This document shows, piece after piece, positions 6,132 through 36,897 of a stretch of DNA of 64,000 nt. This stretch comes from Coralliovum pocilloporae. Lineage in GTDB: Bacteria > Pseudomonadota > Alphaproteobacteria > Rhizobiales > Cohaesibacteraceae. Made by a program: the position numbers and the translations under genes. The notes beneath the pieces were generated by a model. That model had not been told where the DNA came from, did no database searches, and saw nothing but the letters and a program-made list of their open reading frames with translations. The stretch covers positions 3,011,501 to 3,075,500 of the forward strand of contig NZ_CP132542.1 in the NCBI RefSeq assembly GCF_030845175.1, given 5' to 3'. Numbering within the stretch: the first letter of the stretch is position 1; each line of letters opens with the position of its first letter.

Positions 6132-7748
6132 CTATCCAAGATTGAGCGCCTGGAAAAAGTCGTTGCCTTTGTCGTCAACCACGATGAAGGCTGGGAAGTC
6201 TTCCACTTCAATCCGCCAGATGGCTTCCATGCCAAGCTCTTCAAACTCGACGCACTCCACCTTCTTGATGCAGTCCTGGGCAAGACGAGCTGCCGGGCCG
6301 CCGATTGAGCCGAGATAGAAACCGCCATGCTTCTGACAAGCTTCACGCACCTGGCGGGAGCGGTTGCCCTTGGCCAGCATGACCATGGAACCGCCCAGAG
6401 CCTGGAACTGATCCACATAGGCGTCCATGCGTCCGGCTGTGGTTGGTCCAAAGGAGCCTGATGCATAACCTTCCGGTGTTTTGGCAGGGCCTGCATAATA
6501 AATCGGATGGTTCTTGAAATAGTCCGGCAGATCACCGCCTGATTCAACCCGATCCCGCAGCTTGGAATGGGCCAGGTCACGAGCCACGATGATTGTGCCG
6601 CTGAGAGATAGGCGGGTCTTGATCGGGTGCCGCGTCAACTGACCGAGAATCTCGCTCATGGAACGATTGAGGTCGACCTTCACCACATCGCCGGACAGAT
6701 CGTCATCCTTGATGTCCGGCATGTATTTGGCCGGGTGTTCCTCAAGCTGTTCAAGGAATACGCCATCCTTGGTGATCTTGCCCAGGGCCTGACGGTCAGC
6801 AGAACAGGAGACACCGATACCAATGGGCAGAGATGCACCATGTCGGGGCAGGCGGACAACGCGTACGTCATGACAGAAATATTTGCCGCCAAACTGAGCA
6901 CCGACACCCGTTTTCTGGGTCAGCTTGTGAATCTGCTCTTCCATCTCAAGGTCGCGGAAGGCGTGTCCGGCCTCAGAACCTGCCGTGGGCAGTCCATCAA
7001 GATAGCGGGTGGAGGCCAGCTTGACGGTTTTCAGATTCTGCTCAGCCGACATGCCACCCACGACCACTGCAAGGTGATAAGGCGGGCAAGCTGCGGTTCC
7101 GAGCGTCAGGATTTTCTCTTTGATGAAGTCAATCAGCCGATCCGGGGTCAGCAGGGACGGCGTACCCTGGAACAGAAATGTCTTGTTGGCAGACCCGCCC
7201 CCCTTGGCGATGAACTGGAACTTGTAGGCGTCTTCACCATCCGCATAGAGTTCGATCTGGGCCGGCAGATTGGTGCGGGTGTTCTTCTCCTCAAACATGG
7301 AGATAGGCGCAAGCTGGCTGTAGCGAAGATTGCGCTTCTCATAGGCATCCAGCACACCCTTGCCAAGCGCGGCTTCATCGCTTCCATCTGTCCAGATGCG
7401 GCGACCTTTCTTGCCCATGACGATGGCTGTTCCGGTATCCTGGCACATCGGCAGGATGCCCCCCGAGGCAATATTGGCATTCTTCAGGAGGTCATAGGCG
7501 ACAAACCGGTCATTGTCGGTTGCTTCCGGGTCTTCCAGAATCCTTCGGAGCTGGGCGAGATGCCCGGGACGCAGCAGATGGTTGATATCCATGAATGCCT
7601 GCTCGGACAGAAGCCGCAAGGCTTCCGGTTCCACAGTCAGGATCTCCTGACCCTGAAACTCGGTCGTCGACACATAGTCGGAGGTGAGTTTCTTGTATGG
7701 AGTCTCGTCAGCTCCAAGCGGAAAGACAGGCGTATAGGTAAAAGTCAT
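6132..7748 (-). CDS. Class I fumarate hydratase (iron-sulfur type)
   Basis: This TCA-cycle enzyme interconverts fumarate and L-malate using a [4Fe-4S] cluster. The 538-residue length matches the FumA/FumB single-chain form. The N-terminal domain contains [19 protein letters not shown] with the first cluster Cys. The mid region [14 protein letters not shown] supplies a second. The C-terminal beta domain contains [19 protein letters not shown] and [12 protein letters not shown], typical of the L(+)-tartrate dehydratase-beta-like half. I chose the ATG at 7748, which gives the family N-terminus; a longer in-frame start at 7805 adds 19 low-complexity residues. It appears to be a single-gene unit, divergent from the exopolysaccharide transferase. 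Confidence 0.95.
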
Positions 7749-11056: not shown

Positions 11057-11509
11057 ATGCGTTTAACAAAACAGACCAGCTACGCGCTGCGCATTCTGAT
11101 GCATTGCGCCATGAAAGGCGATGAATACGCCAAAATCGCAGAGATCGCGAAAACCTATGCGATTACTGAATACAACGTGTTCAAGATCGTACCACTTCTC
11201 GTTCAGGCCGGATTCCTGGACACTGCACGCGGTCGCAATGGCGGTATTAAGCTTGCGATGCCTGCGCCTTCCATTCGCATTGGTGATGTGGTTCGCGCCA
11301 CGGAAGAGACCTACATCCAGGCAGACTGTTTCGGATCGGGTGTGGAAGAATGTGCAATTCAGCAGGCCAGCCCGCTGAACAGAATGCTCGACCGGGCACT
11401 TGATGCATTTGTGACCGTTCTGGACGAACACACGCTCGAAGATATCATGCCCCATCGCGCGCGTGCCGGACAGGCTCCGGCTGAGGTTGTTGCTGCTCTT
11501 GATGCCTGA
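11057..11509 (+). CDS. Rrf2-family regulator, RirA-like, lacking the third cluster cysteine
   Basis: Rrf2 proteins are winged-helix repressors that usually bind an iron-sulfur cluster and sense iron, nitric oxide or oxygen. The start MRLTKQTSYALRIL and the segment TARGRNGGIKLAMPA closely resemble RirA, the rhizobial iron regulator. Cluster cysteines are expected in a C-x(7-8)-C-x5-C pattern. Here Cys91 (ADCFGSG) and Cys99 (EECAIQ) are present, but the third position is Ser105 (QQASPLN). The protein may therefore bind a cluster with different ligands or not at all. RirA itself, the NO sensor NsrR or another Rrf2 subgroup are alternatives. It is a 150-residue single gene whose end lies 2 bp from the convergent gph. 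Confidence 0.85.
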   Translation: MRLTKQTSYALRILMHCAMKGDEYAKIAEIAKTYAITEYNVFKIVPLLVQAGFLDTARGRNGGIKLAMPAPSIRIGDVVRATEETYIQADCFGSGVEECAIQQASPLNRMLDRALDAFVTVLDEHTLEDIMPHRARAGQAPAEVVAALDA

Positions 11510-36585: not shown

Positions 36586-36897
36586 CTAAGCGCTCTTTTC
36601 GTCTTCCTTGCAGAACTTGTCGTGCAGGAGGCCGATAAGGTCCTTCATCGTATCATTGGCGAGTGAGTAATAGATCGTTGTACCGGACCGCCGTGTTGCA
36701 ACAATGCTCTGGGCACGGAGCAGGGCCATATGCTGGGATACAGCAGACATACGCAGGCCTGTCGCCTCGGATAATTCACCCACCGCCCGCTCGCCATCCG
36801 TAAGCTGGCACAAGATCATCAGCCGCGGTGCAGAAGCCAGTAGTTTCAAGAAACCTGAAACATATTCGGCTTTCTGTTCAAGTTCTGTCGTATTCAT
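36586..36897 (-). CDS. ArsR-family regulator, BigR/SqrR-like sulfur sensor
   Basis: The 103-residue protein has the ArsR helix-turn-helix (VGELSEATGLRMSAVSQHMALLR, residues about 39-61) and a short winged tail. Two cysteines occur at 30 (LMILCQL) and 96 (HDKFCKED), with 66 residues between them. In BigR and SqrR two cysteines at the same spacing form a sulfur-sulfur bridge with hydrogen sulfide or persulfide and release DNA. I infer a persulfide-responsive repressor here. No BigR target genes such as a persulfide dioxygenase or sulfide:quinone reductase are adjacent; the divergent neighbour is DUF1636. Confidence 0.8.
   Translation of the reverse strand: MNTTELEQKAEYVSGFLKLLASAPRLMILCQLTDGERAVGELSEATGLRMSAVSQHMALLRAQSIVATRRSGTTIYYSLANDTMKDLIGLLHDKFCKEDEKSA

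Follow-up and report, generated by a model that had tools for sequence, protein, structure and literature searches.

A RirA-like Rrf2 regulator of Coralliovum pocilloporae belongs to a clade that lacks the third cluster cysteine and probably controls iron uptake

The stretch of DNA analysed here (the window) covers 64,000 nucleotides of the C. pocilloporae genome, a single complete contig of 3.918 Mb. An open reading frame at 11057–11509 on the forward strand codes for a 150-residue protein beginning MRLTKQTSYALRILMHCA. It was annotated as a two-cysteine RirA-like Rrf2 regulator on the basis of its open frame, its Pfam and NCBIfam scores and the fold of an AF2 model. Membership of the Rrf2 superfamily was clear from the Pfam score (PF02082, 104 bits against a cut-off of 30), whereas the protein scored below the cut-offs of the more specific NCBIfam models, with 151 bits against 193 for RirA, 91.3 against 182 for NsrR, and 42.9 against 207.55 and 28.9 against 275 for IscR. 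In its translation cysteines are found only at positions 17 (codon at 11105–11107), 91 and 99. Cys91 (11327–11329) and Cys99 (11351–11353), both encoded by TGT, are the two retained cluster cysteines, and the third cluster position is Ser105 (AGC, 11369–11371), which aligned with the third cluster cysteine of Streptomyces coelicolor NsrR. The preliminary description of this locus, which had reported a RirA-like protein with serine at the third cluster cysteine and the other two kept, was correct in both respects, and the usual three-cysteine ligation of RirA is not usable with Cys91, Cys99 and Ser105. Its proviso that a different cysteine might take the third position can be set aside because the only cysteines are those at 17, 91 and 99.

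The regulator, which we take to be a dimer from what is known of the Rrf2 family, was modelled with AF2 from an alignment of three rows, giving a mean pLDDT of 75.8; since residues 86–103 fall below 50, the cluster loop is unreadable from this model. Rrf2 structures were matched at Z 12–16, those of IscR, CymR, RsrR and NsrR all lying within a few Z units of each other, and no RirA structure was seen in the list of structure matches. NsrR was the top sequence match among solved structures (2.7e-12). In the model a helix spanning residues 106–122 begins right after Ser105 with Pro106, a residue present in 92% of the two-cysteine rows described below, which suggests that position 105 may serve as a helix cap.

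No iron-acquisition genes were recognised in the window. It holds a fumarase gene (6132–7748), whose product by eye resembles the iron-sulfur enzymes of class I, and a small open frame resembling an ArsR-type winged-helix protein (36586–36897). None of seven tested window neighbours adjoins the regulator of any relative fetched, and the matches of these neighbours beyond their own locus were limited to a single reductase and to aldehyde dehydrogenases of distant kinship. Neither the regulator's own promoter nor the rest of the window contained a good copy of the operator palindrome described below (12 matches versus 22.9 expected when two mismatches or fewer were allowed), and autoregulation was rejected on this ground.

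The cluster cysteines were then compared across relatives, taken as deduplicated top matches rather than as a random sample, with matches below 60 bits or beginning after position 4 removed before rows were counted. The two-cysteine and Cys-less proteins made up 41 rows, the window protein included. Cys91 and Cys99 were both present in 25 of these and both absent in 16, and in no row was exactly one of them found, an all-or-none pattern which argues that the pair would act as a unit. The third cluster cysteine was absent from all 41 rows and present as Cys105 in all 39 three-cysteine RirA-type rows, 11 of which are from a second paralogue in the family of the window organism. The loss is therefore common to the whole clade, where the preliminary description had dealt with this protein alone, and a sequencing error hiding a cysteine, also considered there, does not fit these counts. 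Nor do the orthologues keep the serine: position 105 is occupied by Ala (9), Ser (8), Thr (5) or Val (3) in the 25 two-cysteine rows. Because three other residues also occupy this position, serine is no conserved replacement ligand, and Ser105 was rejected in that role. No new ligand clearly common to all the two-cysteine rows was seen among these 25. Cys17 was conserved without exception in the 37 rows that formed the clade when the tree was built without column 17; in the row counts, which are partly circular for this residue as rows had been grouped by residue 17 and the three cysteines, it was present in 39 of 39 three-cysteine RirA-type rows, and Leu17 was found in 16 of 23 NsrR-like or other rows. 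Since the three-cysteine rows also have it, Cys17 did not arise with the cysteine loss, and although it is the only other cysteine of the window protein, it was likewise rejected as a substitute in the third place. His125 (codon at 11429–11431), a candidate alternative ligand or a structural mark, was found in 20 of 25 two-cysteine and 16 of 16 Cys-less rows, with Tyr125 in 71% of the three-cysteine rows. The clade is marked by Lys5, Asn40, Cys17 (also found in canonical RirA) and mostly His125.

Phylogenetic analysis placed the two-cysteine and Cys-less proteins in one clade, both in a first tree (29 rows, support 100/100) and in a tree of 37 clade rows (100/99) for which near-copies at 93% identity or more had been removed and residues 89–107 and 17 omitted from the alignment. 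The neighbour of this clade is canonical RirA, itself recovered as one group with support of only 87/84, and the two are jointly supported at 99/95. The window protein groups outside canonical RirA, in its own clade, within which its exact branch is not fixed by the tree. Loss of the third cysteine is best read as ancestral to the clade, and within it the tree requires the cluster cysteines to have disappeared altogether on two or more independent occasions. The closest relatives come from other families of the order: 21 proteins at 55–65% identity all have Cys91 and Cys99 and lack the third cysteine, and two more at 49% identity have none of the three. In the organism's own family, a RirA orthologue at 45–50% identity was found in 18 of 19 other genomes, with three cysteines in 18 of 18; the one genome in which none was found (G007) has a completeness of 64%. 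The second three-cysteine RirA-type paralogue of this family (L026–L036, 40–43% identity, six to eight cysteines) branches outside RirA and the new clade together. A class-wide scan of 385 genomes, including C. pocilloporae and some others of the same order, returned one member outside the order besides the protein itself, a Cys-less protein in G486, at a threshold of E 1e-36 which would miss divergent Cys-less members; an earlier scan of genome contigs returned two far relatives only. G486 belongs to another order and its member (L169/L232, G486:C31) lies on a 3.6 kb contig, for which transfer or contamination is possible. Within the accessible portions of the literature, mostly exclusive of subscription papers, no homologue of RirA or other Rrf2 protein was seen that lacks the third cluster cysteine or all of them.

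When 32 clade genomes were searched with a canonical RirA query, none of them yielded a canonical RirA. Additional Rrf2 copies read in these genomes were NsrR-like (with Asp8 and no Cys17) or IscR-like, and the last four non-clade matches comprised two NsrR-like proteins, one IscR-like protein and a weak match in G073 (32% identity), a genome region in which no open frame exceeded 20 bits against the window protein. The best reading is that the clade stands in for RirA in its genomes. The C. pocilloporae genome itself encodes two Rrf2 proteins above the Pfam cut-off, the window regulator and an NsrR-like one, together with three Fur-family proteins read by eye as Fur/Mur, Irr (L103) and Zur.

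Examination of the gene neighbourhoods of 22 clade loci revealed iron genes at 11 and none at the other 11. Genes of the hmu type and a TonB receptor were present at L070, L071, L074 and L077, exbB-exbD-tonB at L080 and L081, imelysin operons at L092 and L095, Bfd-like and bacterioferritin genes at L062 and, with a FutA-like binding protein, at L099, and feoAB (by eye) at L093. At seven Cys-less loci of family f2 (L220–L226), imelysin or bacterioferritin genes, again read by eye, adjoin the regulator. In a selection of these products Pfam confirmed imelysin, ExbB, TonB receptors, HemP, HemS, FTR1, ferritin and FumC. The FutA-like proteins matched general binding-protein families only and the Bfd-like frame of L099 had no Pfam match, so that both names are by eye.

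The haem-uptake promoters of L070, L071, L074 and L077 have in common the palindrome TTGACT-N5-AGTCAA or a near-identical one, and ATGACA-N5-TGTCAT lies at the exb promoter of the Cys-less locus L080. The half-sites of the haem-uptake palindrome are near-identical to those of the published RirA operator at fhuA, TGACTAAAATAATCAT, as given in the accessible part of that report (PMC10510648), and the RirA IRO box has been described as TGA-N9-TCA (PMC8822346, likewise in part). Exact copies of TGACT-N5-AGTCA were counted against the same pattern reversed as a control. They were enriched in 25 clade genomes (37 versus 12, p = 0.0005) and in 20 canonical RirA genomes (40 versus 23, p = 0.04), and equalled the control (20 versus 20) in 25 genomes with no close homologue, 21 of which had no match at 1e-24, whereas for the other four the absence is established at 1e-36 only. 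Among 30 of the 37 clade sites that were listed (two in loci already studied, ten chosen first, and the remaining 18 added to remove choice), 14 stand immediately in front of genes for iron acquisition, namely TonB receptors, haem-uptake genes, FTR1 permeases, iron-type binding proteins (by eye) and a siderophore-receptor operon. Such placement has a probability near 1e-20 if 1% of random positions qualify, a figure that we assumed. Two of the 14 sites belong to Cys-less genomes (G310, G262). The other 16 comprise two near iscR/iscS-type genes, one at a DUF4856 gene and 13 at none. The palindrome was seen beside an IscR-type Rrf2 gene in G073 (L247, G073:C1:727415) and beside a cysteine-desulfurase-like gene, named by eye, in G109 (L246, G109:C3:271143), a hint that Fe-S assembly may be controlled as well. 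Five sites of canonical genomes were inspected (L164–L168), with a TonB receptor gene at L164 and L167 and the other three elsewhere.

In C. pocilloporae itself the exact pattern occurs 8 times versus 4 for the control, and with one mismatch allowed the count (13) falls below that of the control (17); because these counts are weak, the argument rests on the placement of the sites and on exact sites. One exact site (position 1099270) lies between hmuR, which has exbB and exbD downstream, and hemP-hmuSTUV, and another upstream of an operon for imelysin and a di-haem oxidoreductase; both are present as IRO-type sequences at iron-uptake genes and are putative binding sites. Two tandem exact sites between the pseudoazurin gene and a glyoxalase-fumC pair (L152:4506-4551, G000:C1:532005-532050) suggest that this control extends to iron-sparing proteins. 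Two strong tandem sites (L150:5061-5101, G000:C1:2820560-2820600) stand in front of the gene for a protein of 130 residues that seems to be secreted and has no recognised function (L150:5336-5728), and the remaining two of the eight (854680, 869314) are at no iron-type gene. An IRO-like sequence, ATGACATTCATAGTCAT, was observed at L111:1501-1517 (G000:C1:3509535), about 310 bp upstream of a nuoA-like gene.

Comparison with characterised Rrf2 proteins brought out the closest likeness to RirA of Rhizobium leguminosarum and relatives, with which the window protein shares the Rrf2 fold, Arg12, Cys17, Cys91 and Cys99, near-identical operator half-sites and iron-uptake targets, its clade occurring where canonical RirA was not found. 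It differs in having no third cluster cysteine, in scoring below the RirA model cut-off and in falling into a separate clade, and since these three defining features are lacking it was not classed as RirA. Further differences are found at position 8 (Ser or Gly in two-cysteine rows, mostly Asn in RirA), in helix 38–50 (Asn40 in the clade, mostly His40 in RirA) and at position 125 (mostly His against Tyr). The window protein has the Rrf2 fold and the Cys91/Cys99 turn in common with NsrR, but has Ser8 in place of Asp8 and no third cysteine, and many clade genomes carry separate NsrR-like copies. RsrR, whose extra ligands are Glu8 and His12, resembles it in the two cysteines and differs at these positions, which are Ser8 and Arg12 here. 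In the parts of the RsrR report accessible to us, two Cys, a His and a Glu hold a [2Fe-2S] cluster, a precedent within the Rrf2 family (PMC11138216). The IscR of Rhodobacter sphaeroides is also an alphaproteobacterial Rrf2 iron regulator, with a single cysteine involved in its cluster and its own binding motif according to the text available (PMC4618611), whereas the window protein is far below the IscR cut-offs.

What we read from the sequences is a missing cysteine, a clade-wide loss, genomes in which a search gave no canonical RirA, and an operator-like palindrome at iron genes. That the window protein is a RirA-like iron repressor is highly probable, with DNA binding and repression predicted from these features, and most likely it works like RirA on the same operator type. 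It is near certain that RirA's three-cysteine ligation is impossible here. In our best explanation, to which as a whole we give an even chance, it is a RirA-like iron-uptake repressor from a clade beside canonical RirA, with a labile two-cysteine cluster. A winged-helix Rrf2 repressor would bind the IRO-type TGACT-N5-AGTCA palindrome and, at sufficient iron, repress genes for acquiring iron, those of haem uptake among them, and for sparing it. Cys91 and Cys99 would bind a labile Fe-S cluster, with other ligands that are not cysteine, and thereby keep the turn that contacts DNA in place, loss of this cluster at low iron would release the operator, and the cluster site would later have been lost entirely in sub-lineages. 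The sensing step by itself, through a putative two-cysteine Fe-S cluster, falls a little short of an even chance, and the Ser8 and Arg12 that occupy the RsrR-type ligand positions count against it. Points against the explanation as a whole are the 16 of 30 sites away from iron-acquisition genes, the weak counts in C. pocilloporae itself, a window with neither a good site nor a recognised iron-acquisition gene, and the 11 of 22 clade loci at which no iron genes were seen. The NsrR cluster has as ligands three cysteines from one monomer and Asp8 from its partner, and it stabilises the turn that runs between the first and second cysteine, which is positioned to touch DNA (PMC5411485, accessible portion). 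RirA is described, in the parts of the reports available, as having three cysteines and a fourth ligand that is perhaps non-protein, thought to be the source of its fragility and iron sensing (PMC10510648, PMC6748827).

Several other readings of the same data have to be weighed. The clade may have given up Fe-S sensing and respond to another signal, such as mononuclear Fe(II), haem or a partner, for example Irr, or be constitutive, with Cys91 and Cys99 as a remnant already gone from some lineages. At least two independent losses of all cluster cysteines would favour this, as does the continued proximity of Cys-less members to exbBD-tonB, imelysin, feoAB, FutA-like and bacterioferritin genes (several by eye), and their retained linkage to iron genes means that the two cysteines may therefore not be the sensor. 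The Irr-like protein encoded in the organism's own genome could sense iron, and so also counts against our best explanation. We nevertheless consider it rather unlikely that Fe-S sensing was abandoned, as both cysteines are intact in all 25 two-cysteine rows, spread over several families, and never stand alone, which is unlike drift. This strict keeping or losing of the pair would also suit a thiol–disulfide switch or a single-metal site sensing redox or metal directly; the cysteines flank a turn that in NsrR is placed for DNA contact, going by the accessible text (PMC5411485), and an oxidised form has been solved for the fold relative CymR. The iron-type regulon context and the presence of a cluster at this site in the nearest characterised relative, as the reports seen in part describe it (PMC6748827, PMC10510648), make such a switch improbable in our estimation. 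Because the pair is all-or-none but Cys-less members keep the regulon, we retain these three models of sensing and weight the two-cysteine cluster first.

Much less can be said for Ser105 as an oxygen ligand replacing Cys105 in a RirA-like [4Fe-4S] cluster. Fe-S clusters can take a serine ligand, judging from the accessible part of PMC11138216, but Ala or Val occupies position 105 in 12 of 25 two-cysteine relatives and, in the AF2 model, Ser105 precedes the helix at 106–122 like a cap, with Pro106 following, so that we think this very improbable. The preliminary description had proposed another ligand, altered sensing of iron or redox, or lost sensing: this set is supported in part, in that the usual three-cysteine ligation is excluded, and a role for Ser105 as the replacement ligand finds no support. 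A sequencing error or a lone degenerate gene has a negligible chance: AGC and TGC do differ by one base, but the genome is a complete single contig, the frame is open and the third cysteine is missing throughout the clade. Loss of all function in the clade is also unlikely, because the clade apparently retains a RirA-type operator and iron-uptake targets.

The sister group to RirA thus probably controls iron uptake yet senses iron differently, since the cluster cysteines have been lost while control of iron-uptake genes was apparently kept. Judging by the Cys-less members, the cysteine pair may be dispensable for survival of the regulon. A possible but doubtful extension is that the site was dismantled stepwise, from three cysteines to two to none, with operator and iron regulon kept and with a mode of sensing new to the Rrf2 family, perhaps via Cys17 and His125. 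RirA is a model for the reading of iron by a fragile [4Fe-4S] cluster, and a natural series of proteins in which the cluster cysteines number three, two or none, acting on the same type of operator and target, would allow a test of which parts of the site are needed and would show how a sensor could be rewired without loss of its regulon. Bacterial genomes seemingly without RirA may use this clade instead.
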